A stretch of 64,000 nt of DNA from a virus, in IMG/VR virus record IMGVR_UViG_3300045971_001064, positions 34,739 through 98,738 of that record; one strand, 5' to 3'. The notes beneath the pieces are model-generated. The model saw nothing but the letters and a program-made list of their open reading frames with translations. It was not told the origin of the DNA and ran no database searches. Positions 3,621 through 61,957 of this stretch are shown here, piece by piece. The translations under genes and the position numbers were made by a program. The number at the start of each line of letters is the position of its first letter. Position 1 is the first letter of the stretch.

Positions 3621-4306
3621 ACGCCCTTCGCGTCAAGCTCGTCGACCATGCCCTTGAACCGGGCGATGTCGACCAGCTTGGCGCGGCCCTCGTGGACCGT
3701 GAACTTGGAGAAGTCCTTGAGCGGCGCGTGCGGGCGCTTGACCTTCAGCAGGCTGGTCTTCCCGGCGGTCATCTCGATGCGTGCGTGCATGCCGTGGCGG
3801 TCGGCCTTCTTCACGACCTCGAAGCTCGTGGGGAAGTAGGCACTGGCGCCGACGCTGACCCAGCTTTTGGCGCCCGGGATGCGGATGAGCGCCCAGCGGA
3901 TGCCGTCGTAGACGCAGTCCCACCTCTGACCACCCTCGATGCCGCCGGACATCGCCTTCATCCACTCGGGGCGGTTCGGCTCCTTCACCTTGCGCTCCGG
4001 CTTCGGCGGAGGCGGCTCGTACGGCACTGGCGCGGGCAGCGCGGCGCCGCAGGACGGGCAGTGCTTCCACCAGTCAGGGCGCACGTGAAGAACGCAGCCG
4101 CAGGGGTAGCGGTACTTGTCGTCCTCGCAGACCCAGCGCGCTTCCTCGTTGTCGCCGCCGTCGTGAAGCCACTTGGGCACGCCATTCTCTTCGGGGATGG
4201 GCCACTTCGCAGCCGCCCACCCACCGCCGAACTTGGGCCAGATGACGTACTTGCCGTCGTTGGAGTGGTGGTAGCCCTCAGAGTCCTTCTTGCCGAAGAC
4301 CAGCAT
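3617..4306 (-). CDS. Hypothetical zinc-ribbon protein
   Basis: 229 residues from MLVFGKKDSEG. The middle contains a two-pair Cys arrangement (CGCVLHVRPDWWKHCPSCGA, residues 72-91), a probable zinc ribbon, followed by a Pro-rich linker (PVPYEPPPPKP) and a C-terminal alpha/beta domain (residues 120-229). The start shares a base with the upstream stop (TGATG). The role is unknown. Confidence 0.75.
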   Translation of the reverse strand: MLVFGKKDSEGYHHSNDGKYVIWPKFGGGWAAAKWPIPEENGVPKWLHDGGDNEEARWVCEDDKYRYPCGCVLHVRPDWWKHCPSCGAALPAPVPYEPPPPKPERKVKEPNRPEWMKAMSGGIEGGQRWDCVYDGIRWALIRIPGAKSWVSVGASAYFPTSFEVVKKADRHGMHARIEMTAGKTSLLKVKRPHAPLKDFSKFTVHEGRAKLVDIARFKGMVDELDAKGV

Positions 4307-4503
4307 CAGTCCTCCGGGTAGAAGACGGTGTAGGGGTAGTGGAGCCCTTCCTGAGAGTCGAAGACCACCTTGGCTGCGGCCGACTGCTCGCGCGTCAGCG
4401 AGCCGAGGAAGTAGACGACCTGCTCTTGGTTGGGGAAGTTGTCCCAGCGCCACGCAGGCTGCGTGTGGCGGCCGACCTCGTCGAGTTGCTGAACGCCGCC
4501 CAT
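4306..4503 (-). CDS. Hypothetical small protein
   Basis: 65 residues starting MGGVQQLDEVGRHTQPA. It contains WRWDNFPNQEQVVYFLGSL, then a helical LTREQSAAAKVVF and an acidic end. It sits between, and is coupled to, the DUF7768-like gene and the zinc-ribbon gene. No family was recognised. Confidence 0.7.
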   Translation of the reverse strand: MGGVQQLDEVGRHTQPAWRWDNFPNQEQVVYFLGSLTREQSAAAKVVFDSQEGLHYPYTVFYPED

Positions 4504-4505
4504 GG

Positions 4506-5060
4506 CTACGCCCTCTTGGTCATGTACGTGCGGGCGGTGGCCAGCGCGTCACGGGGGAGCAGCACGTTGAAGAACTCCTCGCCGCAGGTGGCGCAGACGA
4601 CCTCCTTGGCGGGGGCGTCGGGGTCGATGACTTGGGCGTCCGGGGACGGCTGCTGGTGCTCGCAGTAGACCGGGTCGTTCTCGACGGCCCACTCCGAGCC
4701 CAGCGAGCGCGGGATGTAGAGCATGCCGATGCGGTCGGAGTGGGCGATGCCCTCCTGCATGCCGCGCGAGACGCCGCGGTCGGTGTAGAGGGCGCGGAAG
4801 GCTCCCGCCGCCAACAGCGCCTCGGCCATCTTGAACCCGGCCTCGATGCCCTGCTTGCGCTGCTCGGGCTTGGTGTCGTCGAGCGCGCCGGGGAAGAAGC
4901 CGTGGGAGCCGTAGGGCACCTCGCCGCGAGCGAGGCAGTCCTGAATCGCCGCGCGCAGGTAGGCGATGTTCCGGCGGTAGGCCACCGGGTTGGCGCCCGC
5001 GTAGGGGCTCTCGATGATGCAGACGCGGGTGGCTCGGGTGTCGCTGTTGGGGCTGGTCAT
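4506..5060 (-). CDS. DUF7768-type protein, nucleoside-deoxyribosyltransferase-like fold
   Basis: 184 residues. Residues 10-120 follow the pattern of this phage and bacterial family: VCIIESPYAGANPVAYRRN, then ARGEVPYGSHGFFPGALDDT, then a helix EQRKQGIEAGFKMAEA, then RALYTDRGVSRGMQEGI. The fold resembles nucleoside 2-deoxyribosyltransferases and TIR-type domains that act on nucleosides or NAD. The C-terminus adds a Cys-rich zinc knuckle (VCATCGEEF). The start ATG at 5058-5060 follows the upstream stop by 8 bases; the longer frame is a shadow. The family fold is recognised, but the substrate is not known. Confidence 0.75.
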   Translation of the reverse strand: MTSPNSDTRATRVCIIESPYAGANPVAYRRNIAYLRAAIQDCLARGEVPYGSHGFFPGALDDTKPEQRKQGIEAGFKMAEALLAAGAFRALYTDRGVSRGMQEGIAHSDRIGMLYIPRSLGSEWAVENDPVYCEHQQPSPDAQVIDPDAPAKEVVCATCGEEFFNVLLPRDALATARTYMTKRA

Positions 5061-5068
5061 GTGTGCTC

Positions 5069-5326
5069 CTAGAAGGCGATGTCGCCGGAGGTCAGGTAGC
5101 TGGTGCGGCGGCGGATGTAGGTGTCTGCGATGGTGATGTGCACCGTGCCGTCGACGAGGGTGTACTTCTCGCCCATCACGAGCATGTCGCCTGTGAGGAT
5201 GGAGGTGCGGTCCTTCGGCAAGGAGCTTGCGTTGAGGAGGTTGAAGATGCGCTGGGCGGCTTCGTCTCGGCGCTCCTGACTGACGGCGGCACCGTTCCAG
5301 TTCTCCATCTTTGCGATGTTGGGCAT
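5069..5326 (-). CDS. Hypothetical small protein with a structured leader
   Basis: 85 residues. An N-terminal helical segment (RRDEAAQRIFNLLNASS) is followed by a beta-rich C-terminus (YTLVDGTVHITIADTYIRRR). A strong AGAGGAG precedes the ATG. A 90-base leader with a 74-base folded element and a class B promoter lie upstream, so this first gene of the operon may be controlled at the RNA level. No family was recognised. Confidence 0.75.
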   Translation of the reverse strand: MPNIAKMENWNGAAVSQERRDEAAQRIFNLLNASSLPKDRTSILTGDMLVMGEKYTLVDGTVHITIADTYIRRRTSYLTSGDIAF

Positions 5327-5344
5327 GCGCTCTCCTCTGAGGTG

Positions 5345-46350: not shown

Positions 46351-46392
46351 ATGTAGCGACCCTCCCAGTTCTTGGGGGCGGCGGAGACCCAC

Positions 46393-49300
46393 ATGCCCAT
46401 CTCGTCCACACCTACGTTCCGCTCACTCTCCACCATCGTGGGCGACATGGTCTCCACGTTCCTGAGTGAACTGGACCGCAACAACATCGTGCCGGGCATC
46501 CAGTCGCTGAAGCCGGGCAGCCCGTACCTCGCCATCTTCGAGTCGACCGGCCAGTCGCAGTTCCGCAACCAAGAGCAGACCCTCAGCCTCCTCGACGCCA
46601 ACGACCTCGACATCGCTCACGGCGAGCGCCTCGACCGCATCGGCGCCGCCGAGAAGCTCCTCCGGCGCGGCGCCACGTTCGCCACCGGCTACGTCAACAT
46701 CTCCGACACCAGCTTCACCAAGGTCTCCACCCGCGTCTACCAAGGCAAGCCCGCCCCCATCCCGGGCAGCGTCACCATCTACGTCGCCGACGCGACGGGC
46801 TTCGGCACCACCGGCAACCTGTACATCGGCCGCAACACCCCGAACCTCGAAGGTCCGCTGGCCTACACCGCCTGCGTGAACGCGGGCTCCTACTGGACCA
46901 TCACCCTCGCCGCCGGAACCACCAACTTCCATGGTCTGGGTGAGGGAGTCGTCTTCGCTCAGGGCGGCGACCGCGTCATCACCGCCGGGCAGAGCGTCAC
47001 CACCCCTCAGGGCAACAGCGCCACCTACGCCAAGTTCACCACCACCGCTGCGGCCACCCTCCTCGACGGCGAGACCTCCGTCCTGAACGTCCACGTGGCC
47101 AGTACCGTGCCCGGGGCTGAAGGCAACGCCTCCGCTGGCGGGGTCAAGGTCATCCCCTCTCCCGCCTTCACCGGCATGGCGGTCACCAACCCGCTCCCCA
47201 TCACCAACGGGCTCGACGTCGAGAACGACGACCTGTACCGGGAGCGCATCAAGGCCGCGCGGCGCTCGCGCGTGGGCACCGGCACCGTCCTCGGCATCAA
47301 CGTGCACTCCTACGGCGTGCAGGCGCCCGACGAGGCGGCCACGGTCGTCTCCTCGCAGTACCTGTTCCGCCAGATTCTCCCCTCGCTGCTGGTCATCGAC
47401 GACGGCACCGGCTACGAGGCCAAGGAGTCCGGCATCGCCTACGAGGTCCTGATGGACTCGGCCATCGGTGGCGAGGACGTCTTCTTCCTCAACCACGGGC
47501 AGCCTGTCGCCAAGGCCAGCCTGACGACCGTGCTGGCGGCACCGTACCCGCTCGCCAACCTCGACGTCCTGACCGTCAAGGTCGGCGGCGTCACCTACTC
47601 CCACTCCTTCGACTCGACCGACTTCCTCGACATCACCAACGCCACCGCCTACGAGGTCGTGGCCAGCATCAACTCGAACCCGACCATCCCGTACTCGGCG
47701 CGCACCAGCGGCGCGGGCACCAAGGTGGCCATCTTCGCCAAGGCGAACACCAACGACGACATCGAGGTCGTGGCAGGTGGCGCCAACGTCGCCCTCAGCT
47801 TCCCGCCGGGCGTCGTCGAGGCGCTCCGCCTCTACAAGAACGACTACCTCCTCTCGAAGGACGGCACCAGCGCCTCCTTGACCTCAGCCGACCAGTCGAT
47901 GTGGTCCGGCATCGTCAGCGGCGACACGCTCACCATCTCGGTCGACGGCACGCCGAGCATCACCTACACCTTCACGGACAACGACGTCATCGACCTCGGG
48001 CTCGGCTACGCCACCCTGAGCAACCTGCTGCCCCTGAGCGCGTGGGTCTCCATCTTCAACAACAAGGTCCCGGGCGTCACCTGCGCTCTGTCCGGCTCCT
48101 CGCTGACCTTCACCTCGAACCTCGGCCCGTCGGCTCGTGCCAGCGTCACCATCGACCCCGCTTCGAGCTTGGTGACCAAGGGCGTCTTCAACCCGCTGGC
48201 GCTGACCTCCTCCGGCCGCGCCAAGGACTTCGTCCTCGACCGCAACCGCGGCCAGATTGACCTGACCCAGCCGCTCGTGGCTGGCGACCAGTTGACCGCT
48301 GGCTCCTCCTTCACTCGCGCCTACTTCCAGTCGGCCTCGCTGCTGGCGCTGTCCGTCGTCCCGGTCGGCGGAGCCAACTTCTGGTTCACGGTCGACGGCG
48401 ACGCGGTCCGCATCCCGCACACCCTGAACGCCTCCCACCGCGTCAACCAGTTCTGGGACGCGGGCGGGCGCACCTTCATCAGCTACACCGGCATCGTCAC
48501 CCCAGCCTTCTGCTTCCGGAACGTGCAGGTCGGCGACTACGCCATCTGGACCGAGGACATGTGGGCCGCGGCTCCCGCCACCTTCTCGGTCATGCGCATC
48601 AACTGGGTGGCGCTGGACGGCTCCTCCTTCCGCTGCGACTACCCGACGACCGGCCTCGGCACCGCCTCGGGCTTCAACAACGCAGCCCTGCCCGCCTTCG
48701 AGCGGCTGTTCTTCGTCCGCGCCAGCGCCATCCCGCAGCACGTGACCATCGCGGCTGGCAACTACTCCCCGACGGCTCTGGCTGCCGCGGTGACCGGGCT
48801 GACCGGCGCGACCGTCAGCATCGAGCGGAACAAGCTGCGCATCACCACCAACACCTTCTCCACCCTCGGTGACATCGCCCTGTCGGCGCAGGACGTCAGC
48901 GCCCTGACCGCCCTCGGCTTCACGGTCGGCTCCTCGGTCCAGAACGACGAGCCCGAGACGGCCGCGGTCGAGTCAGGCAACTCGGACGTGGGCACTCCTC
49001 GACTCGTTGACGCGCTCACGGCCTACGTACCCCCGCTGGAGGTGCTGAGCGACCTGAGCGTTGGGGTGACGCAGAGGGACATCGTCGGCGCCCTCTGGCT
49101 TCGCGCGGTCGGCTCGGACACCTTCCTTGGCGTCGTGACCACGGCCAGCGGCACCAACACTGGCGACTCGGCGGAGTGGACCAGCTACGTCGCCGGGAAC
49201 GTGTTCCTCGACCACCTGCTCGCCCAGCCGCGCGCCGCAGTGGACGTCTTGGCGGCCGTGTCTCGCTACCGCGTCGGCCCCATCTCGGACCTGAACGTCG

Positions 49301-52300
49301 TCTTCGACAACGACCCCGTCACCAAGGGCTACTCCATCCCGATGACCCGGTGGTTGAAGACGGACCCCTCCGTTCCGTACGGCATCAACCTCCGTCTCGT
49401 GGATGCCGACAACTCCAACGGCTCGCTGGCCTTGGCCTTCGGCACCAGCTTCGACTTCTCCAACTTCGTGCTGCACGGCCGTGGCCGAGGTCGCGTCAAC
49501 CTTGCCCTGACCCAGCCTGCCAGCACTGACGTCGTGATGCTCCGCTGGAACCGCTGGTCCGGTGCCACTGTCAACTCGGACGTGTACATCGTTCCGCCGA
49601 ACGCAGCCAGCGCTGCTCTCGACGTCGCATGGGACGCCGCTAGCGACAACACGTACGTCTATCTGGCTTCGGGCGCCGACCGCGGCGACATCTTCACCTA
49701 CGGCTCGCATCACTACGTCGGGCAGGGAGCCAGTACCGCCACCCTCGTGTCGGCCTTCAACATCTCGAACATCGCTCGCGTCGGCGGGAACACCGTCACC
49801 GTGACGCTGGGGCGGCCGACCGCCGACATCCTCTTCCACGGAATCACTCCCGGCGCTGCCATCTACCTTGACATCGTCGACGCCAACTTCGCCTCTGGGT
49901 TGCAGACGGTGACCGCTGTCGCTGACGGCTTCCCCGGAGCCACCCTCACGTACATCGAGACCGGCGCCAACGTGTCGGTCGCCAACCCGCCCAACGCCTA
50001 CCTGAGCCGCGGCACGCCGTTCGTTCCCGACTACTCGGCCGTGCAGGTCGGGGACATCATGTCCTTGAAGGCCTCGAACGTGTTCCTCTGGAGCGTGCCT
50101 GCGATGCTCGCGGGCGACCGAGCCCGAGCGCAGGTCGTTGCCAAGTCGCCCGACGCGACGCCGCGCTGGGTTCGACTTGCGACTGGAGTCTTCAACACCG
50201 GCTGGGGCTTCACGTGGTCCTCCACCGACGACATCCGCTTCTTCCCTCTGACGGCCAACACCACCACCGCCGTCATCGCCGCCATCAACGCCCTGACCAC
50301 CTCCACCGTCAGCGCGACGTTGGCTAGCGGGCCCGGCACCGGGCTCATCTCGAAGGTCTGGGACGACATCAACTTCGCCGTCGCCACCACCCTGCGCGAC
50401 TCGCTGCTCTACATCGCGTCCGCCACCTACAACGCTGCGCCGGGCGTCCTCAACTACGACATCACCTTGAAGGTGGATGTGGAGCCGGGCCTCGCTGTCG
50501 CCCCCAACGACTGGGCGAACGAGGAGTTCCGGCTCGCGCCGACCACCGCCAAGAACGTGGCGGACTACCTGAACCGCGGACAGGTCACTGGGCTCGCCTC
50601 GACCGGCGCCAGCATCAAGGCGTCCTCCAACGGCCGCAAGGTGCAGTTGGCTTCCGGTACGCTCGGCTCCGGCGGGGCAGTGCAGGTCACGGGCGGCACC
50701 GCCAACTCGGCGTCCTTCCCTGTTATCTCCACTTCTCTGGTCACTGCGCTGCTGTCGGCAGTGGTCGCGACCAACAGCGGCGTCGACTCGCTCTCGCCGC
50801 AGTCGAACCTGATGCTCACGAACACGGACGTTCTTCCGAAGGTTCTCGACTGGACGGCGGCGACCATCCTGTCGGCCACGCTCGGCGAGGTCGTGGTCTC
50901 TGGCGCTGGCAAGGCATGGACGGCGCTGACGCCCGCGGTTCAGAACGGGCCTTCGTGGCTCTGGAGCGACGCCGGGAACTTCAAGGTGGCCTTCGACAGC
51001 AGCAACACCCTGACCTTCTCCGACGGGGGCTGGGTGCGCTTCGAGCCGGGCTGGGGCAAGTGGAAGCCGGTCGGCTCTCGCGCGAACGCTCTGGTTGGTG
51101 CGGCGTACGTCACCCTGCCGAGCGGGAAGACGATGTCCATCGGAGGGGTCAACGACACCCAGCTTGCGTCGGTCACCGCCACGTCGAACGCGGTTGAACT
51201 CTACGACCCCGTCGCCGAGACGTGGTCGACTCTCGCGGTGCTCCCGGCCGTGCGAGCCTTCGGGGCGGCTGCGTACATCCCGTCGCTCAACAAGGTGCTC
51301 TTCGCTGGCGGCATCCACAATACGGCCCCGGGCGTCTTCGCGTGGCATGCTGAGGCGTGGCTGTACGACATCACTGGCAACTCGTGGGCAGCAACGGGGC
51401 CCCTGAGCGCCGCTCGCTCCCACTTCACGCTGACCACCATGTCCACGAACGAGGTCGTCGCGGTCGGTGGCATGACCTCGCTCACCGCCTCGACGAACAG
51501 CGTCAACGTCTACAGCCCCCTCGCCTTCACCTTCAGCGTGGTGGCCTCCATGGCCAAGGCTCGCGGCACGCACAGCGCCTTCCTCTACGGCATCGACCAG
51601 TTGCTGGTGGTCGGCGGCTTCGGGCCAGCCAGCACCGGCTACGAGACGTTCGCCCTGAACGCGCTCGCGTGGAGCAACGACTCTGCCTTCGCTAGCGGCC
51701 TCGTGCTGACTGCACCCACGGTCGTCGCGCTCTCCTCCACCAAGTTCTTGGTCGCGGGTGGCATCACCACCACGACCGTCGACTTCATTGTCGGTGTCAC
51801 GCAGCCGACGCGCAAGGCCGAGGTGTACGACGTCGTCTCCCACACCGCCGCTGCGGTCGGCGACCTCGTCATCCCGCTCGCCGCTGGCAACGGCGCTGCT
51901 ATCCCGACCAACAAGGTTCTGGTCTGGGGCGGAGCATGGGGCATGCCCTTGGCTGGCGTCGTCCAGTATCCCTTGCCGCACGGCATCAGCCAAGTGTACG
52001 ACATCGCCTCCGACACGTGGACGCTGGCGTCCGCCTCCAAGCTGGCTCACGTCTACGCCCCGGCCTTGAACGTCGACGGCACCACTGTGACCGTCGCTGG
52101 CAGCGCCCTCGCTGACAGCAACGTCCCGAGCGCGGGCACTGAGCGGTTCGACTCGGCCATGCTGGCAGCGCCCGCAGGCAACACCGGGACGTTCCGGGCT
52201 CTCCGCGGCGGAGGCTCGCACGTCGTCATCGAGGCTCCTGCCTCCGTGGCTGGCGAGTGGGACTACGCCTACGTCCGCAGCTACACCTACGACTCCCTCA

Positions 52301-53067
52301 TGCCGGGTGACGTGCTCAACCTGTCGTCAGGCGCCCTCGGGACCGCTCCCGCTGGCAGCTACACCGTGCTCTCGACCGACTTCTCGAACGTGGCGAAGTT
52401 CACCGTCACGGGCTCGGGCACGTGGGCGACCGGCGCCTTCGGCACGGCTCTCCCTCTCGTGCGCGTCATCGCTCGGTCCCCGGCCCGGATGCTGTACTCC
52501 GTCCAGTACATCGGGCCGAGCGCAGATGCGGGCCAGACTAGCCTGCGCCTGTACCCCTCGACCTTCCAAGAGCAGTTCTCGGCCGCTGCTGGCTCGGTGC
52601 TGGTGGCTCAGGACAAGCTGGCCTTCCCGACCACTCTGGTCCCCGGGCAGGACGGCTACCGGTACAACACCGGCCTCATCGCCGAGGTCACCAAGGTCGT
52701 CTACGGCGACGAGCGCGACACGGTCACCTACCCGGGCTACGCCTCGGCCGGTGCCGCCATCGACGTCTCGGCGCCGCTCATCAGGCGCGTGCTCATCTCG
52801 CTGGCCATCCGCGCTCGGTCCGGTGCGGTGGACATCAAGAGCCGCGTCCAGTCGGCCGTCGCCAAGGTCGTGAACTCGGCTGCTCCGGGCCCCATCGCCC
52901 TCTCGCTCATCATCGAGGCGGTGCAGCAGGTCGACGGCATCATCTCGGTCGTCCTCCTGTCCCCGGTGGCCACCACCACCGCCGACACCATCCCGGTCCA
53001 GCCGTACGAGAAGGCTCTCGTGCTCGACCCGACCAATGATGTGACCGTCAGCCTCATCGGGGCGTAA
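46393..53067 (+). CDS. Giant baseplate J-like protein with an inserted Kelch propeller
   Basis: 2224 residues from ATG at 46393, with GGCGGAG upstream; a TTG seven codons earlier is less likely. Residues 1-300 hold the Baseplate_J N-terminal region and core (SYWTITLAAGTTNFHGLGEG, then TNGLDVENDDLYRERIKAAR). Residues about 350-1560 are beta-rich repeats with Ser/Thr-rich strands. Residues about 1560-1930 look like a Kelch beta propeller: repeated blades such as KVLFAGGIHNTAPG, VVAVGGMTSLTAST, QLLVVGGFGPAST and KFLVAGGITTTTV, each with a YD-type turn. The C-terminal 130 residues (RRVLISLAIRARSGAVDIKS) match the C-terminal Baseplate_J domain. It would be part of the wedge ring, with a surface propeller. 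Confidence 0.75.
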   Translation: MPISSTPTFRSLSTIVGDMVSTFLSELDRNNIVPGIQSLKPGSPYLAIFESTGQSQFRNQEQTLSLLDANDLDIAHGERLDRIGAAEKLLRRGATFATGYVNISDTSFTKVSTRVYQGKPAPIPGSVTIYVADATGFGTTGNLYIGRNTPNLEGPLAYTACVNAGSYWTITLAAGTTNFHGLGEGVVFAQGGDRVITAGQSVTTPQGNSATYAKFTTTAAATLLDGETSVLNVHVASTVPGAEGNASAGGVKVIPSPAFTGMAVTNPLPITNGLDVENDDLYRERIKAARRSRVGTGTVLGINVHSYGVQAPDEAATVVSSQYLFRQILPSLLVIDDGTGYEAKESGIAYEVLMDSAIGGEDVFFLNHGQPVAKASLTTVLAAPYPLANLDVLTVKVGGVTYSHSFDSTDFLDITNATAYEVVASINSNPTIPYSARTSGAGTKVAIFAKANTNDDIEVVAGGANVALSFPPGVVEALRLYKNDYLLSKDGTSASLTSADQSMWSGIVSGDTLTISVDGTPSITYTFTDNDVIDLGLGYATLSNLLPLSAWVSIFNNKVPGVTCALSGSSLTFTSNLGPSARASVTIDPASSLVTKGVFNPLALTSSGRAKDFVLDRNRGQIDLTQPLVAGDQLTAGSSFTRAYFQSASLLALSVVPVGGANFWFTVDGDAVRIPHTLNASHRVNQFWDAGGRTFISYTGIVTPAFCFRNVQVGDYAIWTEDMWAAAPATFSVMRINWVALDGSSFRCDYPTTGLGTASGFNNAALPAFERLFFVRASAIPQHVTIAAGNYSPTALAAAVTGLTGATVSIERNKLRITTNTFSTLGDIALSAQDVSALTALGFTVGSSVQNDEPETAAVESGNSDVGTPRLVDALTAYVPPLEVLSDLSVGVTQRDIVGALWLRAVGSDTFLGVVTTASGTNTGDSAEWTSYVAGNVFLDHLLAQPRAAVDVLAAVSRYRVGPISDLNVVFDNDPVTKGYSIPMTRWLKTDPSVPYGINLRLVDADNSNGSLALAFGTSFDFSNFVLHGRGRGRVNLALTQPASTDVVMLRWNRWSGATVNSDVYIVPPNAASAALDVAWDAASDNTYVYLASGADRGDIFTYGSHHYVGQGASTATLVSAFNISNIARVGGNTVTVTLGRPTADILFHGITPGAAIYLDIVDANFASGLQTVTAVADGFPGATLTYIETGANVSVANPPNAYLSRGTPFVPDYSAVQVGDIMSLKASNVFLWSVPAMLAGDRARAQVVAKSPDATPRWVRLATGVFNTGWGFTWSSTDDIRFFPLTANTTTAVIAAINALTTSTVSATLASGPGTGLISKVWDDINFAVATTLRDSLLYIASATYNAAPGVLNYDITLKVDVEPGLAVAPNDWANEEFRLAPTTAKNVADYLNRGQVTGLASTGASIKASSNGRKVQLASGTLGSGGAVQVTGGTANSASFPVISTSLVTALLSAVVATNSGVDSLSPQSNLMLTNTDVLPKVLDWTAATILSATLGEVVVSGAGKAWTALTPAVQNGPSWLWSDAGNFKVAFDSSNTLTFSDGGWVRFEPGWGKWKPVGSRANALVGAAYVTLPSGKTMSIGGVNDTQLASVTATSNAVELYDPVAETWSTLAVLPAVRAFGAAAYIPSLNKVLFAGGIHNTAPGVFAWHAEAWLYDITGNSWAATGPLSAARSHFTLTTMSTNEVVAVGGMTSLTASTNSVNVYSPLAFTFSVVASMAKARGTHSAFLYGIDQLLVVGGFGPASTGYETFALNALAWSNDSAFASGLVLTAPTVVALSSTKFLVAGGITTTTVDFIVGVTQPTRKAEVYDVVSHTAAAVGDLVIPLAAGNGAAIPTNKVLVWGGAWGMPLAGVVQYPLPHGISQVYDIASDTWTLASASKLAHVYAPALNVDGTTVTVAGSALADSNVPSAGTERFDSAMLAAPAGNTGTFRALRGGGSHVVIEAPASVAGEWDYAYVRSYTYDSLMPGDVLNLSSGALGTAPAGSYTVLSTDFSNVAKFTVTGSGTWATGAFGTALPLVRVIARSPARMLYSVQYIGPSADAGQTSLRLYPSTFQEQFSAAAGSVLVAQDKLAFPTTLVPGQDGYRYNTGLIAEVTKVVYGDERDTVTYPGYASAGAAIDVSAPLIRRVLISLAIRARSGAVDIKSRVQSAVAKVVNSAAPGPIALSLIIEAVQQVDGIISVVLLSPVATTTADTIPVQPYEKALVLDPTNDVTVSLIGA

Positions 53068-54390
53068 ATGGCATACGAGAAGAACTGGCAGTTCGACACC
53101 AACCGGCTCTACGTACCGGGCAGCACGCCCCCGCCCCTGATGCTCAACGCTGTGGCGGTGGCCGGTGGCGGCACGTTCGCCTCCAACACGACTTATCAGT
53201 ATGCAATCACCGCCACCAAGAACGGATGCGAAAGCCTCGTCTCGAACGAGCAGTGGGCCATCTCACCTATTTCAGGCACCATCGTTCTCACTTGGACGGC
53301 AGTGCCCGGCGCGACTGCTTACACCGTCTACCGCGGCACAATCTCTCGTTCCTACAGTAGGTGGATGCAGTTGGGGAACGTGCTGACTTACGTAGACACC
53401 AACGCGATGAACGTTTCCAGCGGCATCACCGGCACCCCCTACAACTACGCGCCGGAGACCAGCAAGTACGCCCTCTGGTACTACAAAGCCTTCCTCACGG
53501 GTCAGATTGGCGGAGCCACACTCGGCCTCTGGACGGTGGCTGGTTCTAGCGACTCGGTCACCGGAGCCATGGACGGTGTCGACCGCTGGGGTCCGACTTT
53601 TGACGGGACAAAAATCTACGGCAACGCCGCGGGCACCTTCCATTCGTGGGTGTGCCTCAAATCACCCCTCATCTTGGGGCACAACTACTACATCCTCATC
53701 GACTTCAACAGCAACAGCGCCTATCAGGCGTCCTTCTCGTTGGTGGCTGACGCGGCGCCAACCGGAGGCTCGAACACCACAGCGCCGACCACGGTCTTGC
53801 CTGCAACCATCTCCCCCTTCATCACGCTCACTTCGGCGTCGGCCTCGTACTACCCGGCAGGCGCGTTCCGATTGCACGGCGCGCTGGCGAGCGACGGTAG
53901 CTTCAACATTCTCACTAGCCGCAACGGCTCGGGGCGGTTCGTCTCAGGGTTCCTGTTCCATTTGCTCGCCAACTATCGCCCCGCCGACCAGTTCCCATGC
54001 TGGATGTCATTCAACCTCGATTACACACTCGGCTCTATGTCGTCCAGTTATGGCGGCACCAAGGGTAACAGCAACTCTCTGGACTCTATCAGCAACGCGA
54101 TGATGAGGTCCCCGAACAACAGCGGCTTCGACTTCTACTCTGTGGTGCTGCCGGTCGTCACCAACTGGCCTGACGGAGAGGACCGCTTTGACCTCTCCTA
54201 CGCCGACTGGCCGTGTTGGGTCTCGAAGAAGACCGGCACCAACATCGGCACGCGGGGCCGCCTCCAAGACATCACGTTCTTGGCTGGCACCCCGGACATC
54301 GGCACGACCGACGACCCTATCTCGCCGAAGTACGTCAGCGTCGGCGGTCTCTGGCGCTTCCCCATCGACCAGCGCATCCTCTGGGAGTAA
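53068..54390 (+). CDS. Tail fibre paralog 1, with fibronectin-like insert in the N-terminal stalk
   Basis: 440 residues, starting MAYEKNWQFDTNRLYVPGST. The insert (residues about 25-115) has a fibronectin-III-like pattern (LTWTAVPGATAYTVYRGTIS) and lies before the conserved anchor WYYKAFLTGQIGGATLGLW. The rest is beta-rich (GSGRFVSGFLFHLLANYRPA). Four tandem genes of this type follow the baseplate gene; this one and the third share the longest block (FLTGQIGGATLGLWTV region). It probably binds host receptors. Confidence 0.75.
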   Translation: MAYEKNWQFDTNRLYVPGSTPPPLMLNAVAVAGGGTFASNTTYQYAITATKNGCESLVSNEQWAISPISGTIVLTWTAVPGATAYTVYRGTISRSYSRWMQLGNVLTYVDTNAMNVSSGITGTPYNYAPETSKYALWYYKAFLTGQIGGATLGLWTVAGSSDSVTGAMDGVDRWGPTFDGTKIYGNAAGTFHSWVCLKSPLILGHNYYILIDFNSNSAYQASFSLVADAAPTGGSNTTAPTTVLPATISPFITLTSASASYYPAGAFRLHGALASDGSFNILTSRNGSGRFVSGFLFHLLANYRPADQFPCWMSFNLDYTLGSMSSSYGGTKGNSNSLDSISNAMMRSPNNSGFDFYSVVLPVVTNWPDGEDRFDLSYADWPCWVSKKTGTNIGTRGRLQDITFLAGTPDIGTTDDPISPKYVSVGGLWRFPIDQRILWE

Positions 54391-54393
54391 CAC

Positions 54394-55716
54394 ATGGCCT
54401 ACGAAAAGACGTGGCAGTTCGACATCAACCGCGCGTACTCCCCCTCCACCTTGACGGACATGGGGAAGTGGGTGCTGTGGTACTACAAGGCCTTCCTCAC
54501 GGGTCAGATTGGCGTCAGCGGCACCGCACCGACCGTCATCACGGTAGCAACTCCGAGCGCCGCGGGTGGCACCTTGGCGGCAGGGGTCTACTACTACCGC
54601 GTGGCCGCGATTGTCGGCGGCGTCGAGTCTGTCGGCTCGAACGAGTTCACGGTCACGACCACGGGTGCGACGGGGTCTGTGGCGCTCACTTGGCTGGCCG
54701 TCACTGGCGCAACCGGCTACCGCGTCTACCGTGGCATCGCGTCGGGGGCCGAGAACGTCTTCTACGCTCCCGGGGCCGTGACAACCTACACGGACACCAA
54801 CGCAGCCTCGTCGGTCGGCTCTCCTCGCACCGACAAGGGCACTTGGTGGGTCGTGGGGTCATCCAACTCGACCACGGGCGACAACTTCTCGGGAACCAGC
54901 TTCGGCCACGACTACTGGGCGTCCGCGACCCGGCCTGAAACCTACACGGCCGCCAACATCGTCCGCAACACGGCAGGCTCGGCTCACTCTTGGTTGGTGC
55001 TGCGCTCACCGGCCTCTGTGGGAGGAGGGAAGGCGTATTACCTGCTTCTCGACTGGAGCACGGCGACGGACTATCAGGTCACCGTCACGCTGGGAGTTGA
55101 CTCGCCTCCGACCGGCGGCACGAACACCACCGCCCCGACGATGGTCAACTTCACCGGCAGCCAGTTGCTCAGCGCGGTCTTCTCGATGAGCGCCACGAAC
55201 GGCCCCATCCACATGCACGGCACCTTGGCGACCGACGGCAGCTTCAACATGCTGATGTCTCGCGACGCCACCGGCAAGTTCATCTCAGGGTTCCTTGGGC
55301 ACGCACCCGCCAACGTGAAGGTGAACGACCTCTACCCGCTGTGGATAAGCATGTACGGCGACTCAACCGCCGCCTCGGGCTACGGAGCGGTGGCGAGCAC
55401 GTACGCCCCAGACAACGCGACGTGGAGCATGATGCGAGCCCCAGACAACTCGCTGGGCGGCGGTTGGGCGGTCGTCAGCCCAGCGCTGACGTACCTTCCT
55501 GCCGCGCCCGACAGCTTCGACGGCAGCTTCATCGACTGGCCTTGCTGGCTGGGGGCGAGCACCCTAGCGTACCGCTCGATGCGCGGTCGCCTCCAAGACA
55601 TCATGTTCTTTGGCGGCGGCGTGGCGACCGGCTCCGTGGACAATCCGGCGGGCACGCCGGGATTCATGGTGGTCGGCAACTACTGGTTCCCCACCAACGC
55701 CGCCCCCATCTTGTAG
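54394..55716 (+). CDS. Tail fibre paralog 2, with fibronectin-like domain after the anchor
   Basis: 440 residues starting MAYEKTWQFDINRAYSPSTL. The fibronectin-like domain (residues about 47-145, with VALTWLAVTGATGYRVYRGI) lies after WYYKAFLTGQIG, a different insertion point from paralog 1. The C-terminal part (YLLLDWSTATDYQVTVTLGV, then ATGKFISGFLGHAPANVKVN) is the shared receptor-type domain. It starts 3 bases after the previous stop. Confidence 0.75.
   Translation: MAYEKTWQFDINRAYSPSTLTDMGKWVLWYYKAFLTGQIGVSGTAPTVITVATPSAAGGTLAAGVYYYRVAAIVGGVESVGSNEFTVTTTGATGSVALTWLAVTGATGYRVYRGIASGAENVFYAPGAVTTYTDTNAASSVGSPRTDKGTWWVVGSSNSTTGDNFSGTSFGHDYWASATRPETYTAANIVRNTAGSAHSWLVLRSPASVGGGKAYYLLLDWSTATDYQVTVTLGVDSPPTGGTNTTAPTMVNFTGSQLLSAVFSMSATNGPIHMHGTLATDGSFNMLMSRDATGKFISGFLGHAPANVKVNDLYPLWISMYGDSTAASGYGAVASTYAPDNATWSMMRAPDNSLGGGWAVVSPALTYLPAAPDSFDGSFIDWPCWLGASTLAYRSMRGRLQDIMFFGGGVATGSVDNPAGTPGFMVVGNYWFPTNAAPIL
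54547..54580 (+). repeat. 34-base direct repeat shared with paralog 4
   Basis: Exact repeat of 56878-56911, located at the start of the fibronectin-like domain in paralogs 2 and 4. Confidence 0.9.
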
Positions 55717-55719
55717 GAG
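55681..55719 (+). repeat. 39-base repeat at the end of paralog 2
   Basis: Identical to 56677-56715 and includes the last codons and the Shine-Dalgarno of the next gene. It marks the cassette boundary. Confidence 0.9.
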
Positions 55720-55728
55720 GAGTCCGCC

Positions 55729-56712
55729 GTGGCGACGTACGAGAAGTCGTGGCAGTTCGACATCAACCGGGTCTACTCGGATGCCGTCACCTCGGCGGAC
55801 ATGACGAAGTACACGCTGTGGTACCTCAAGGCCTTCCTCACGGGTCAGATTGGCGGAGCCACACTCGGTCTTTGGACTGTGGTTGGGTCTAGCGACTCGG
55901 TCACTGGAGGCATGGACGGTGTCGACCGTTGGGGCTCGACGTTTGACGCCACCAAGCTGGTGCGCGCGTCGGCCAACACGGCACACTCGTGGTGCGTGTT
56001 GAAGTCGCCCCTTATCAAGGGGTCCTTCTACTACTTCAACATCGAGTGGAAGAGTGGCGCTGACTATTCCTTCTACCCCCAGTTCACGACTTCTTTGCCT
56101 ACTGGAGGCTCAAACACCACACCGCCCGTCAGCGCGACTCCTACCGCGGCGCCGGGGACGACGACAGCTACGCCCATCTCAGCCAGCACCAACCCCGGCG
56201 CGATGCACCTGCATGCTGCACTGGCCACTGACGGCAGCTTCTACTTGCTGACCTCGCGAGACAACGTCGGCAAGTTCCTTGCGGGCGTGGTGTGCGTGTG
56301 GCTCGGGAACGCCAAGCCGACCGACAGCTATCCCCTCTTCTTGCACTGCAACGGTGACATCGGTCAGTCCAACGGCTACGGAGCGTCCGGGGTCAGTAAC
56401 GGCATGGAGTGGAACAACGGCGGGTGCATGCTGGCGCCAGATAACTCGCTCGCCGGGCTCTGGGCGGGCGTCATCCCATCCACCACTAATCTACCTGCTG
56501 GCAGCGACCCGTTCGACTCCAGTTACCTCGACTTCCCCGTTTTTGTAGGCGCGTCTGCTATTGCGTACCGAGGCCTGCGCGGTCGAGTCCAAGACATCAT
56601 GTTCTTCCCCGGCGGAGCTAGCACAGGAACGGTGGACAACACCGCAGGTGCACCGACTTACATGGTGGTCGGCAGCTACTGGTTCCCCACCAACGCCGCC
56701 CCCATCTTGTAG
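55729..56712 (+). CDS. Tail fibre paralog 3, without fibronectin-like domain
   Basis: 327 residues from GTG, starting MATYEKSWQFDINRVYSDAV. The anchor (WYLKAFLTGQIGGATLGLWT) joins directly to the receptor-type domain (SVTGGMDGVDRWGS, then LKSPLIKGSFYYFNIEWKS), so this is the minimal form of the family. The coding bases are less GC-rich than in the tail module, which hints at more recent exchange. Confidence 0.75.
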   Translation: MATYEKSWQFDINRVYSDAVTSADMTKYTLWYLKAFLTGQIGGATLGLWTVVGSSDSVTGGMDGVDRWGSTFDATKLVRASANTAHSWCVLKSPLIKGSFYYFNIEWKSGADYSFYPQFTTSLPTGGSNTTPPVSATPTAAPGTTTATPISASTNPGAMHLHAALATDGSFYLLTSRDNVGKFLAGVVCVWLGNAKPTDSYPLFLHCNGDIGQSNGYGASGVSNGMEWNNGGCMLAPDNSLAGLWAGVIPSTTNLPAGSDPFDSSYLDFPVFVGASAIAYRGLRGRVQDIMFFPGGASTGTVDNTAGAPTYMVVGSYWFPTNAAPIL

Positions 56713-56715
56713 GAG
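56677..56715 (+). repeat. 39-base repeat at the end of paralog 3
   Basis: Second copy of 55681-55719. Confidence 0.9.
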
Positions 56716-56721
56716 AACTCC

Positions 56722-58032
56722 GTGGCCCGAGAAAAGACTTGGAAGTTCGACATGAACCGGGCGTACACCCCGTCCACGCTGCTGGACATGTCGAAGTACA
56801 TCCTCTGGTACTACAAGGCCTTCCTGACGGGGCAGATTGGCGTTGGGTTCACGGTGCTCGCAACCACCATCACGGCCGCAACTCCGAGCGCCGCGGGTGG
56901 CACCTTGGCGGACGGCACCTACTACTACCAAGTCACCGCTCTGAACGGCGGCAACGAGAGCGCGCCATCCAACGAGGTCTTCGCGACCGTTACCGGTGGT
57001 GGTAGCGGGTCTGTCGCCCTCACTTGGACAGCGGTGTCCGGCGCGACTGGCTACCGCGTCTACCGCGGGACAGCCGCGGGCGTCGAGAGCGTCTTCTACG
57101 CCCCGGGCGCTGTGACGACCTACACCGACATCAACGCAGCCTCGTCGGTCGGCTCTCCTCCGGCGACGGGCACTTGGGTTGTCGTCGGCTCCAGCGACGC
57201 ATCCACTGCCGGTATGGACGGGCTCGACCGATGGACGAACTCTTACGTCGCGGGCAAGGTCAACCGTAACAACGCAGGCTCCGCCCACTCTTGGGTGGTG
57301 CTGCGCTGCACCGTGCAGATGGCGTCCAAGCAGTTCTACCTGCTGCTCGACTGGAGCACCAGCTTCGACCATGCGCTCACCACGACCTTCGGAGACACCA
57401 CACCTCCGGTCGGCGGTAACATCAACACCGCACCCACTCTCGCAAACCTCGCAGCCTGCACGTCCTTGCCCTTCAGCGCAAACGCTGGGCTGGTGCCGAT
57501 GCACCTGCACGGTGCGCTGGCCACTGACGGCAGCTTCAACTTACTGGTGTCGAGCGACTTCACCATGAAGTTCCGGTCAGGCTTTTTGCTGCACCTGCTG
57601 GCCGCCTACAAGGTGACGGACTTGTATCCCGTGTGGATGTCGCTCGCTGGAGAGATAGGCGCTCAGCAGATGGGGCTTGGGTACGGCACCTCGGGGGCAG
57701 CGCCGGACCTCGGCTATATCTCCAACTCGGCCATGCGATACCCCGACAACACCAACAGCGGCCAAGTCGGAATCATCCAGCCCACCGGAACCAATCTGCC
57801 TTCCGCCCCGGACCTGTTTGACGGCACCTTCGCCGACTGGCCTGCGCTTGTCGGCAACAAGGTTGTGGGCAACACAACCCTGCGCGGGCGCTTGCAGGAC
57901 ATCTACTACTTCCCGAACTCGACCGGCACTGCCGTGCCGTCGACCGGCGCCGTCGATAACCCGGCAGCGCCGGAGTACATGCTCGTCGGACAGTGGTGGC
58001 TCCCCACCAACGCCATCCCTAACATCTACTAA
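56722..58032 (+). CDS. Tail fibre paralog 4, with fibronectin-like domain after the anchor
   Basis: 436 residues from GTG, starting MAREKTWKFDMNRAYTPSTL. The fibronectin-like domain (VALTWTAVSGATGYRVYRGT) lies at the same point as in paralog 2. The C-terminal domain differs most from the others (KFRSGFLLHLLAAYKVTDLY, then IQPTGTNLPSAPDLFDGTFA). It ends the fibre cassette. Confidence 0.75.
   Translation: MAREKTWKFDMNRAYTPSTLLDMSKYILWYYKAFLTGQIGVGFTVLATTITAATPSAAGGTLADGTYYYQVTALNGGNESAPSNEVFATVTGGGSGSVALTWTAVSGATGYRVYRGTAAGVESVFYAPGAVTTYTDINAASSVGSPPATGTWVVVGSSDASTAGMDGLDRWTNSYVAGKVNRNNAGSAHSWVVLRCTVQMASKQFYLLLDWSTSFDHALTTTFGDTTPPVGGNINTAPTLANLAACTSLPFSANAGLVPMHLHGALATDGSFNLLVSSDFTMKFRSGFLLHLLAAYKVTDLYPVWMSLAGEIGAQQMGLGYGTSGAAPDLGYISNSAMRYPDNTNSGQVGIIQPTGTNLPSAPDLFDGTFADWPALVGNKVVGNTTLRGRLQDIYYFPNSTGTAVPSTGAVDNPAAPEYMLVGQWWLPTNAIPNIY
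56878..56911 (+). repeat. 34-base direct repeat shared with paralog 2
   Basis: Second copy of 54547-54580. Confidence 0.9.
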
Positions 58033-58637: not shown

Positions 58638-59573
58638 ATGGAACTCAAGCAAAGCGTCGGCATCAGCGTTCCTGTCCGCCTGCGTGCGGTCGTCGACGGC
58701 TCTCCGCTCGCTGCCGTGACCTACCAGCAGGCGACGGTCTACCTCCAGAAGCACGGCGGCGCGGCTGTCCAGAAGGTGCTCGGGCCCGCCGACTGGGTAG
58801 AGGTCGACGGCGTCAACATGCCGGGTGAGTACGACCTCGTTCTCCAGAACACCGACGTCGACACCCTCGGCTTCTTGAAGTACTCGGTGACCTACATCGG
58901 CATCTCGACCTACTACTTCGGCTTGATGCAGGTGGTGTCCAACTTGGAGGCGGACACCTTCGGGCGCCTCGGAGCCCCGGCTGGCGCCAGCGTCTCGGCC
59001 GACATCGCCGCCATCGAAGCTCACGCGGTAGCCATTGACGCCAAGACGACCAACCTCCCGGCCGTCCCTGCCTCGCAGGGCGACGTGACCAGCAGCACCG
59101 CGACACTGGCTGCCGACCTCGCCGCAGCGGTCACCTCCATCAAGGGCGCGGGCAACAAGGACATCACGCAGGTCGACACCGCCGTCGCGGCGGTCAAGGT
59201 CGACACGGCTGCCATCGCGCTCAAGACCACCAACCTCCCTGCCGTCCCCGCCGCTCAGGGTGACGTGACAGCGGCCGTCACCTCCATCAAGGGCGCGGGC
59301 AACAAGGACATCACGCAGGTCGACACGGCCGTCGCGGCTGTCGGCGTGAACGTGGTCGAGCTTCTCGGCCTCCTCCACAAGAACGCGGTGCTCGACGGCC
59401 AGACGTACAACGCGGGCGGCAGGCTCACGGGAGGCACGCTCTACGTGTACGACACCGCGGCGCACGCCTCGCTCAACGACCACGTGACCGGCCTGCTTCA
59501 CTCGTACACCATCTTCGCCACCTACGACCTCGCCGACCACCAGACCCTCTACCGTCTCACGCTCCTGAGCTAG
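58638..59573 (+). CDS. Virion protein with internal tandem repeat
   Basis: 311 residues. N-terminal beta domain (VPVRLRAVVDGSPLAAVTYQ). Residues 130-240 hold two copies of a helical repeat (TNLPAVPASQGDV, then AAVTSIKGAGNKDITQVDTA) separated by a shorter linker, likely a coiled stalk. The C-terminus is a beta domain. It is probably a fibre-associated or baseplate-appendage protein. Confidence 0.6.
   Translation: MELKQSVGISVPVRLRAVVDGSPLAAVTYQQATVYLQKHGGAAVQKVLGPADWVEVDGVNMPGEYDLVLQNTDVDTLGFLKYSVTYIGISTYYFGLMQVVSNLEADTFGRLGAPAGASVSADIAAIEAHAVAIDAKTTNLPAVPASQGDVTSSTATLAADLAAAVTSIKGAGNKDITQVDTAVAAVKVDTAAIALKTTNLPAVPAAQGDVTAAVTSIKGAGNKDITQVDTAVAAVGVNVVELLGLLHKNAVLDGQTYNAGGRLTGGTLYVYDTAAHASLNDHVTGLLHSYTIFATYDLADHQTLYRLTLLS
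59130..59179 (+). repeat. 50-base direct repeat, copy 1
   Basis: Identical to 59277-59326; both code for the VTSIKGAGNKDITQVDT repeat. Confidence 0.9.
59277..59326 (+). repeat. 50-base direct repeat, copy 2
   Basis: Second copy; the two are 147 bases apart, in frame. Confidence 0.9.
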
Positions 59574-59575
59574 CC

Positions 59576-60190
59576 ATGAGCCTCGGCATCGCCACACGCG
59601 GGTACGCCTCCGACCAGACTGGCGGCGGTGGGGCCGCTGGGCCTGTCGCCTCCATCTTGGGCGTGGGCATCAACTACATCGACGTCGCGTGGACCATGGC
59701 CGCGACGCTCACTGTCGTAGGGGTCGTGCCGTCCAACTGGGTCGTCACTCCCGTCATCGGGCGGGCTGTGACGGTGCTGTCGGTCACCCAGTTGAACCCG
59801 ACCACCACACGGCTCACGACCTCCGACCAGACCTCGGGTGGCTCCTACTTCCTCGCCGTGCCCGCCGCGGCCGTCATCGACACCGGCCTCGTCGGCAACC
59901 CGAACGCCTTCACCTCACTCAGCTTCATCGGCGTAGGGCACCTGCCGTCGCTGGTCTCGGCCAACCCTCTCACCCCGAACACGGTGGAGGCGACGTTCTC
60001 CGAGGCTGTGGTCGCCGTCGAGGCCTTGGCCTTCTCGAACTACTCCTTCGACAACGGACTGTCGGCGGTGAGCGTGGCTCAGGTCTCGTCGACCATCTTC
60101 ATCGTGACGACGAGCGAGATGACTCCAGCCACAATCTACACCCTGACCGTCTCAGGCATCCACGACCTCGCAGGCAACCCGGTCACCTAG
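59576..60190 (+). CDS. Virion protein with SbsA-type Ig-like domain
   Basis: 204 residues. The last 85 (PNTVEATFSEAVVAVEALAF, then TIYTLTVSGIHDLAGNPVT) are a typical bacterial Ig-like (Big_5/SbsA) domain, and the first 110 hold another strand-rich domain. It probably forms a small appendage on the baseplate. Starts 2 bases after the previous stop. Confidence 0.65.
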   Translation: MSLGIATRGYASDQTGGGGAAGPVASILGVGINYIDVAWTMAATLTVVGVVPSNWVVTPVIGRAVTVLSVTQLNPTTTRLTTSDQTSGGSYFLAVPAAAVIDTGLVGNPNAFTSLSFIGVGHLPSLVSANPLTPNTVEATFSEAVVAVEALAFSNYSFDNGLSAVSVAQVSSTIFIVTTSEMTPATIYTLTVSGIHDLAGNPVT

Positions 60191-60193
60191 CCC

Positions 60194-61957
60194 ATGTCCA
60201 CCTCAGCCATCTTCACAGGTCTCGGCTTCACGCTCGTCTCCGCTCAGCCGGTGGACGCCTCGACCATCTTGGTGACGTTCGACTACACCCCGCTGCCGGG
60301 CGTGGGCGTGTACGGGCTGCTGTCGAACCACGGCGACGTCCGCACGGTCACCGTCGGCGCTGGGCCCCAGCCGCATCAGGTCTACCTCTACACGAACGCG
60401 CCGCTCACGCAGGACTTCTGGACCCTCAGCTACTCGGGCCAGCAGACCGGCGCTCCGCCCGTCACCATCACCGCTGGCTCGACCTACTTCTGGTGCGGCG
60501 TTGGCGCTGCTCCCGTCGGCGCTTCGTCGCCTCCCTTCTCCGGCGAGAACCAGACCGCGGCCGAGTTCATCCGCGACCACATCCCTTCGAGCATGAAGGG
60601 GAACGTCTGGGCCTGCCTCATCGCCGGTCTCGCGGCCGGTGAGCAGGTGGCTTGGGACAACGCTCCCCTCGTCGACCGCCAGATGTTCTTGGCCACAGCC
60701 TCGGGCGTGTGGCTCGACCGGCGCGCGGCTGGGCTCGGCTTGGAGCGCCCCGTCAACGTCGGCATGGGCGACGAGCCCTTCCGCGGGTACGCTGTCGCGG
60801 TCTCCTCCGGCCAGCAGACCATCATCGCCTTCCTCGAAGCTCTCAGGGTCTTCTACGGCCGGACCGCGGTGCAGGCGGCAGCCGTCAGCGGCGACGAGCC
60901 CTTCGCTCTGGCGGACGGCCAGCGGCTGGAGTTCACCCTCGACGGCGTCCAGACGGTCGGGGTCACGTTCGCCACGGCCGACTTCCAGAGCATCGGTGCG
61001 GCCACCTCCCGCGAGGTCGCCAGCGTCCTGAACCGCGAGTTCTCCCTCCAAGGGGTCAGCGCTATCGCCTTGGTGGACGAGAACCCCATCACCAAGGTGC
61101 CCCGGGTGACCCTCTACACGGGCACGCTGGGAGCGCGCGGGAGCCTTCAGGTGGCGTCCGGCGCCGTCCAGACGGCACTGGGCCTGCCTACGACCCTCCG
61201 ACGCCTCTTGGGGCAAGCTGGAGCGTCCTACGTGCTGTCCCGTGGCGCCGGGCAGGTCGAGGTCTTCTTCCCGGCCACCACGCAGGTCGTCGGCCGCGAC
61301 CAGACCTCAGCCGCCTACCTGACCGACGACTCCGGGCTCATCTACGGCGACGACCTGTACGGGATGGGTGTGTACGGGGTGGGAGGGCCTCCGGCAGGCA
61401 TCGGGCCGTACCTGTTCGAGGGGGTCGACAAGGGCTTGGCCATCACCGAGGTCGCCACCGTCACCACTGCGTCGGTCCTCGGTGCCGGGAACCAGTACAG
61501 GCTTGTGGAGGTCGGCTCGACGGCCGGGTTCACCGACGCCGAGTGCTGGCTGGTCTTCGGCTACGGCTACGAGTACCAAACCGGGCCAGTGCGCTGCCTC
61601 GGCGTGGCCGGGCCGACGACCCTCCTGCTCGACGTGGCCTTCACCTTCCCTGCCGCCATCCCGGTCGGCGCCTCAGTGAACCTCCTCTTGAGCGCCGCTC
61701 CGCCCACCTTCGCGGTCGGTGACATCGGGAACTTCTACCTGACCGACTCGCCCGCTGGCCGCGTGGCTGCTATGGCCGCCATCGACTCCATCGCCGCGGC
61801 CGGGTACGCCGTCACGAAGACCGTCACCTACCCCGGCGACGTCGGGCTGGGGAACGAGGGCCGCCCCACCCACGGCACGCCCGCCATCTCCGACATCGTC
61901 CAGTGCTTCGCTGGCTCCGATGTCGACGGCGAAGTCGCCACCGCGAGGAGCACCTAG
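60194..61957 (+). CDS. Baseplate or tail-tip protein with Ig-like start
   Basis: 587 residues. The first 110 are an Ig-like domain (STSAIFTGLGFTLVSAQPVD, then TILVTFDYTPLPGVGVYGLL). Residues 118-220 (AEFIRDHIPSSMKGNVWACL, then GVWLDRRAAGLGLERPVNVG) resemble the N-terminal helical part of the baseplate J-like gene. The remainder is beta-rich. It may be a distal baseplate component near the fibres. Confidence 0.6.
   Translation: MSTSAIFTGLGFTLVSAQPVDASTILVTFDYTPLPGVGVYGLLSNHGDVRTVTVGAGPQPHQVYLYTNAPLTQDFWTLSYSGQQTGAPPVTITAGSTYFWCGVGAAPVGASSPPFSGENQTAAEFIRDHIPSSMKGNVWACLIAGLAAGEQVAWDNAPLVDRQMFLATASGVWLDRRAAGLGLERPVNVGMGDEPFRGYAVAVSSGQQTIIAFLEALRVFYGRTAVQAAAVSGDEPFALADGQRLEFTLDGVQTVGVTFATADFQSIGAATSREVASVLNREFSLQGVSAIALVDENPITKVPRVTLYTGTLGARGSLQVASGAVQTALGLPTTLRRLLGQAGASYVLSRGAGQVEVFFPATTQVVGRDQTSAAYLTDDSGLIYGDDLYGMGVYGVGGPPAGIGPYLFEGVDKGLAITEVATVTTASVLGAGNQYRLVEVGSTAGFTDAECWLVFGYGYEYQTGPVRCLGVAGPTTLLLDVAFTFPAAIPVGASVNLLLSAAPPTFAVGDIGNFYLTDSPAGRVAAMAAIDSIAAAGYAVTKTVTYPGDVGLGNEGRPTHGTPAISDIVQCFAGSDVDGEVATARST

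Follow-up and report, generated by a model that had tools for sequence, protein, structure and literature searches.

It has been known for two decades that phages carry promiscuous Ig-like and fibronectin type III (FN3) domains. Why the chain of a sheath, tail-tube or capsid subunit can accommodate some of them at mid-length and remain intact is a question to which we know of no general answer. This question is raised by a locus at positions 53068-58032 of a 64,000-nucleotide stretch of viral DNA, which comprises bases 34739-98738 of the 98738-base virus record IMGVR_UViG_3300045971_001064 and will be called the window. Four tandem genes of this locus encode paralogous, putative tail proteins (P1 to P4), and three of them carry an FN3-like insert of about 105 amino acyl residues at differing points of the chain. 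We consider it likely that tandemly duplicated tail proteins have been combined here with a mobile, circularly permuted FN3 module that inserts into loops.

Results

Arrangement of the Four Paralogs

Open reading frames (ORFs) and a full-length alignment confirm the proposal of the initial annotation that four successive genes of the window are paralogs, all of them on the + strand. According to the alignment, P1 (53068..54390, 440 amino acids) consists of the start, the permuted FN3-like insert (53119..53460), which lies between the first strand and the anchor helix, the anchor SKYALWYYKAFLTGQIG (53461..53511), and the core. In P2 (54394..55716, 440 amino acids), the start is followed by the anchor DMGKWVLWYYKAFLTGQIG (54457..54513), directly after it the insert (54514..54837), and then the core, and P4 (56722..58032, 436 amino acids) has the same order with the anchor DMSKYILWYYKAFLTGQIG at 56785..56841 and the insert at 56842..57168. 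P3 (55729..56712, 327 amino acids) is a core without insert, and its anchor DMTKYTLWYLKAFLTGQIG (55798..55854) overlaps a helix predicted for residues 22-37. The alignment therefore bears out that the domain precedes the motif FLTGQIG in P1, follows it in P2 and P4, and is absent from P3. FLTGQIG and the common start are seen in all four proteins as had been claimed, except that P4 begins with MAREK and not with YEK.

Strand Order of the FN3-Like Insert

The Pfam model fn3 (PF00041) has a curated cut-off of 25 bits, which none of the native proteins reaches: the single P4 domain scores 17.7 bits and covers model positions 7-36, and P1 and P2 give no match. When the P4 domain is doubled head to tail, fn3 scores 28.1 bits on residues 49-156, and the alignment spans the junction and covers model positions 7-82/84. 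A profile of 11 domains in native order aligns with the single FN3 domain 3mpc_A in two swapped pieces (E 1.3e-8), profile positions 29-81 matching 12-65 and positions 7-28 matching 67-89. If the same 11 domains are permuted back, their profile gives a single alignment with 3mpc_A in which positions 3-77 match 18-89 (E 1.7e-10). Three further FN3 chains, 5g56, FN3con and the FN3 domain of chitinase A1, are likewise aligned in one piece and over a longer stretch. A first permuted-back profile made from four sequences did not join the two halves, which were joined by that of 11 sequences. In a rotation scan, for which the domain was cut at every second alignment column and then re-scored, the score rises from 31.9 bits for the native order to a single peak of 44.0 bits at the boundary between strands G and B. 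A full-length match is hence obtained only after rotation, and one cut is optimal. The FN3 strand order A-B-C-D-E-F-G was not found in the insert; in P4, a first half resembling strands F-G (GTYYYQVTALNGGNESAPSNEV, 56896..56994, + strand) is followed by a second half resembling strands B-C-E (VALTWTAVSGATGYRVYRG..TTYTD, 56995..57138, + strand). At the sequence level, the insert is thus a circular permutant of FN3 in which F-G precede B-C-E.

The insert of P1 is matched by the domain profile with an E value of 1.4e-50, P1 itself being part of this profile. An AlphaFold2 model of P1 is poor overall, with a predicted template modelling score (pTM) of 0.44, and was used only for the strand order within the insert, for which seven strands are predicted at low to moderate confidence. 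Foldseek searches with this model place chains of the SPO1 capsid protein Gp6.1 (9vel) among the best matches by probability (0.95-1.00), but with E values of 0.04-0.1, and no canonical FN3 is found among the matches listed. By profile, Gp6.1 is matched in the native order of the insert only.

A more reliable frame for the insertion points is provided by the AlphaFold2 model of the insert-free P3, obtained from 25 sequences with a mean predicted local distance difference test (pLDDT) score of 76.7 and a pTM of 0.86. It consists mostly of strands and contains one helix, residues 22-37, which overlaps the anchor. Projected on this model, the P1 insertion point lies between strand 8-16 and helix 22-37, and that of P2 and P4 between helix 22-37 and strand 50-56. 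In the single-copy locus L001, the only occurrence of the domain within the core family outside the window, a version with a weaker match (E 4e-7) uses a third point before strand 87-92. All insertion points of P1, P2, P4 and L001 fall between predicted secondary-structure elements of P3.

Occurrence of the Permuted Unit in Virion Proteins

When IMG/VR was scanned for the domain, 80 loci with 86 listed ORFs were obtained, among which one stand-alone F-G/B-C-E unit was found in 69, two units in seven, and the reverse, canonical order in one. The proteins carrying the permuted unit form 28 unrelated clusters and include tail sheath, major tail and minor tail proteins. In 80 of 81 cases the unit is internal, with at least 15 residues on each side, and this holds even within a tail sheath. 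The phage of the window possesses a distant version as well, at residues 314-384 of a capsid-like protein of 478 amino acids which is encoded outside the window (G000 ~3901-5337; L007:574-2010) and was identified by its sequence, without a family match.

Relatives and History of the Four Copies

With the insert removed, the cores of P1 to P4 align over their full length with 42-52% amino acid and 54-61% nucleotide identity; the view that the paralogs differ in everything but start and anchor was therefore too strong. Paralog profile E values of 1e-144 to 1e-224 within the own genome and DNA repeat blocks of 160-191 nucleotides with 73-84% identity show that this similarity is not due to chance. 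Pfam, NCBIfam and PHROGs contain no family that the insert-free core matches significantly. Searches with members from P3, L001, L016, L019 and L024 detected no core relatives among 50,697 phage records (INPHARED), no close DNA relatives were found among phage records, and two scans of bacterial genomes gave no core relatives either. Relatives are present on IMG/VR contigs, where, after merging of near-identical contigs, about 26 arrays can be distinguished, of which 16 have more than one copy. As far as the present searches show, this unnamed, array-forming core family is new.

The arrays contain one copy (for example L008, L015, L016, L108 and L117), two (L020-L024, L112, L113 and L118), three (L109, L119, L120 and L130-L133), four (the window and L126), seven (L121 and L124) or eight copies (L019), and these counts are minima, some arrays being cut by contig or locus ends. 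Relatives that all have the same four genes, the observation named by the initial annotation as contrary to its proposal, were thus not encountered. With an identity of 58-60% between their giant J genes, L008 is the sister phage of that of the window; it has a single insert-free fibre copy at the equivalent place behind the J gene, so that copy number is labile. A tree built from 25 members places the copies of L019, L022 and L024 each in clades of their own, two orthologous copies are common to L020 and L021, and the window copies group with L001, L008, L015 and L016. Such lineage-specific clades show that array expansion has occurred several times. Adjoining the eight-copy array of L019, a gene (L019:430-1509) has the appearance of TnpB/OrfB in its sequence, and a mobile element may possibly be linked to array growth at this locus.

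Identity is higher over the first 100 than over the last 127 residues, both for the window copies (59 versus 42%) and for all members (38 versus 21%). Along the genes, quartet site patterns switch from P1+P3 versus P2+P4 in the first half to P2+P3 in the second (max-chi2 permutation p = 0.0006). Core codons 21-80 of P1 and P3 are 88% identical at the nucleotide level compared to about 50-60% in most other parts, and the synonymous divergence (dS) of this block is 0.37 versus 0.93 overall; P2 and P3 share a block of 73% identity. The switching patterns together with the P1/P3 block make it probable that segments were exchanged between paralogs. The ratio of nonsynonymous to synonymous divergence (dN/dS) of the core is about 0.5-0.6, with dS near saturation.

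The inserts themselves tell a different part of this history. Those of P2 and P4 are sisters (support 97/97) with 71% identity and fit inheritance by duplication, whereas that of P1 has only 40-47% identity with the two, a distance comparable to that seen for the domain in an unrelated tail-tube protein of an Arthrobacter phage. A common origin of the P1, P2 and P4 domains within the family is neither shown nor rejected (approximately unbiased test, p-AU 0.342). Since the sister phage L008 and two further relatives have one gene without the domain, the simplest reading is that the domain was gained after duplication; contrary to it, the single-copy L001 has a distant version of the domain at another point.

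Genomic Context and Predicted Function

The paralogous genes are arranged head to tail with intergenic gaps of only 3-12 bases. Shine-Dalgarno sequences precede the start codons of P2 (GGAG before ATG), P3 (AGGAGG before GTG) and P4 (AGGAG before GTG), and the ATG of P1 is placed immediately after the TAA stop codon of the upstream gene. No internal sigma-70-like promoter was noted in the P1-P4 set, which by its layout looks like one operon.

The upstream gene (46372..53067, + strand) encodes a giant baseplate J-like protein of 2231 amino acids with kelch repeats (Pfam Baseplate_J, E 3.6e-10; Kelch_6, E 1e-11) that also matches a PHROG of baseplate wedge subunits, and the gene preceding it matches PHROGs of a baseplate protein and a baseplate hub. 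The kelch repeats are situated at about residues 1560-1730, and a propeller of this type seems uncommon for a baseplate protein. J and gp25-like genes were also seen by ORF inspection near the fibre gene of L015 and L016. Just upstream of these single fibre genes, L016:5742-6311 and L015:667-1350 have a similar C-terminal Ig-like stretch (FTGTA..VELYRDGVLVGT..), which in L016:5742-6311 is apparently fused to a gp25-like protein.

P1 to P4 thus lie within a tail and baseplate gene cluster and have a conserved N-terminal and a variable C-terminal part, as tail-fibre or receptor-binding proteins do, and no similarity to a known family of such proteins was found in sequence or fold. With the P3 model, Foldseek gives no PDB match at E <= 0.001, and the best match in BFVD is weak and unnamed (W8VYN2, E 9.8e-4, template modelling score 0.42). 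I6NP94 from Burkholderia phage AH2, considered as a relative of the core fold, was too weak to be used (probability 0.28). From gene order and variability, P1 to P4 are probably small baseplate-proximal tail proteins of the receptor-binding or tail-fibre kind, and they may bind receptors.

Downstream of the array, the gene at 58041-58634 matches CBM5/12 (chitin-binding-like) weakly (E 0.011) and also matches a tail fibre PHROG; neither this gene nor the following one (58638-59573) was seen at the corresponding place in L008. By inspection, the fibre copy of L008 is directly followed by genes resembling 59576-60190 and 60194-61957 of the window. Ig-like repeats with the motif SGIHDLAGN are found in the look-alike genes 59576-60190 of the window and L008:11420-12277, directly behind the fibre genes, and the former has no Pfam match.

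Discussion

In the explanation that we favor, the four genes would have arisen by duplication within the phage lineage, each copy keeping the conserved N-terminal anchor while its C-terminal part diverged and segments were exchanged, and three copies would have been extended by the mobile FN3 module. Canonical FN3 domains have their ends at opposite poles, which suits end-to-end chains. The chain of the module, by comparison, would begin at strand F, run through F-G and then B-C-E, and have its new ends at the E-F loop. With the cut at this loop and G joined to B, the two ends should be neighbors, and we infer that they are adjacent in three dimensions. Such a permutant could be inserted into a surface loop with little strain and leave the recipient fold undisturbed. 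Adjacent termini would explain loop insertion and the several insertion points within one family, and likewise why the unit is internal in sheath, tail-tube and capsid proteins. We lean, with some reserve, towards the wider view that tailed phages share a dedicated insertion-type permuted FN3 capable of spreading to virion proteins of unrelated kinds and entering their loops, its permutation being the structural reason for internal insertion and for changes of position. The module might work as a surface-displayed spacer or a weak-binding domain.

Several observations weigh against this interpretation. The doubled-domain test passes the fn3 cut-off for P4 only; the doubled Arthrobacter domain gives a weak value (E 0.12), and no fn3 match is obtained with the doubled domains of P1, P2, L001 and the own capsid-like protein or with those of five further families. 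FN3 strand A has no placement in the insert, and the adjacency of the insert ends derives from assigning strands by homology. The 80 loci of the IMG/VR scan were retrieved by a native-order query, which favors permuted copies and affects the ratio of permuted to canonical units, not the existence or breadth of the permuted unit. The tail location of P1 to P4 follows from gene order, without a direct match, and no receptor-binding fold was found for the core by Foldseek in the PDB and BFVD. Moreover, the mosaic signal could stem partly from uneven constraint. One might take the insert for an ordinary promiscuous FN3/Ig-like domain and the rotation for a profile artefact or an overlap of half domains: single copies give only partial fn3 matches, and such domains on phage structural proteins have long been known (PMC8718954, citing Fraser et al., 2006). 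We regard this as improbable because rotation converts a swapped two-piece alignment into one full-length alignment, the rotation scan has a single peak, and 69 ORFs contain exactly one F-G/B-C-E unit without the adjoining half unit required by a canonical array.

The initial annotation had proposed that the virion may carry mixed fibres or that the copies may be a reservoir for recombination. In the strong form of the latter view, with the domain and the C-termini actively shuffled to change host range, this seems rather doubtful to us. Exchange of segments is plausible, given the mosaic patterns (p = 0.0006) and the blocks of 88% (P1/P3) and 73% (P2/P3) identity; the copy number in relatives varies from 1 to 8, and recombination of tail-fibre genes has been reported as a route to broad host range in vibrio phages (PMC12028318). 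Hopping of the domain between paralogs is, however, not supported: the P2 and P4 domains look duplicated by descent, that of P1 is older by comparison, and elsewhere in the family the domain occurs only in L001. One might read from the dN/dS values, which indicate moderate constraint only, that duplication has left copies in decay and that a single one of them is made or assembled. This is very hard to reconcile with four intact and tightly packed frames that keep their conserved motifs, with good Shine-Dalgarno sequences in three copies and coupling of P1 to the stop codon of the J gene, or with the recurrence of arrays of 2-8 intact copies in other phages, and we give it very little credence.

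Tail gene duplication and FN3-like domains of virion proteins are features of known kinds, whereas the permuted, insertion-type FN3 is new as far as our searches show; the open literature yielded no report of a permuted phage FN3, which does not prove that none exists. If true, a permuted FN3 with adjacent ends offers a simple and testable answer to how phage proteins tolerate such domains in mid-protein, and with the SPO1 capsid (9vel) the structure of a relative has possibly been solved already. The unnamed family, with arrays of 1-8 copies, provides a natural series for studying the diversification of phage tail proteins, and the permuted unit could serve as a module for display by loop insertion.

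FN3/Ig-like domains have been described on structural proteins of tailed phages such as SPP1 gp17.1*, lambda gpV and T5 pb6 (PMC8718954). Like these, the insert of P1, P2 and P4 belongs to β-sandwich modules of about 100 amino acids common to unrelated virion proteins; the reviewed domains are exposed on the particle surface, as those of the window presumably are, and neither are conserved among close relatives. In contrast, the reviewed examples are mostly C-terminal fusions in canonical order, whereas P1, P2 and P4 carry the two FN3 halves in exchanged order at an internal position. The major capsid protein Gp6.1 of Bacillus phage SPO1 (9vel) has a colinear match in permuted order at about residues 307-382 (E 0.0021), also internal, but it is a capsid protein, while P1 to P4 are predicted tail proteins. 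The same permuted domain is found at residues 114-213 of the major tail protein of Arthrobacter phages (Korravirus), for example gp11 of HunterDalle. It is 42-43% identical to that of P4 and resides in a Phage_TTP_17 tail-tube protein, so that the Arthrobacter case differs from the window by another host protein and a single copy. With regard to the array, large phages with multiple fibres, for example Schizotequatrovirus with seven tail fibres (PMC12028318), similarly encode several tail-fibre proteins per genome and recombine at receptor-binding loci. Their fibres comprise 474-1223 amino acids (PMC12028318), whereas the unnamed family described here consists of proteins of about 330 amino acids encoded by one to eight tightly packed tandem copies.

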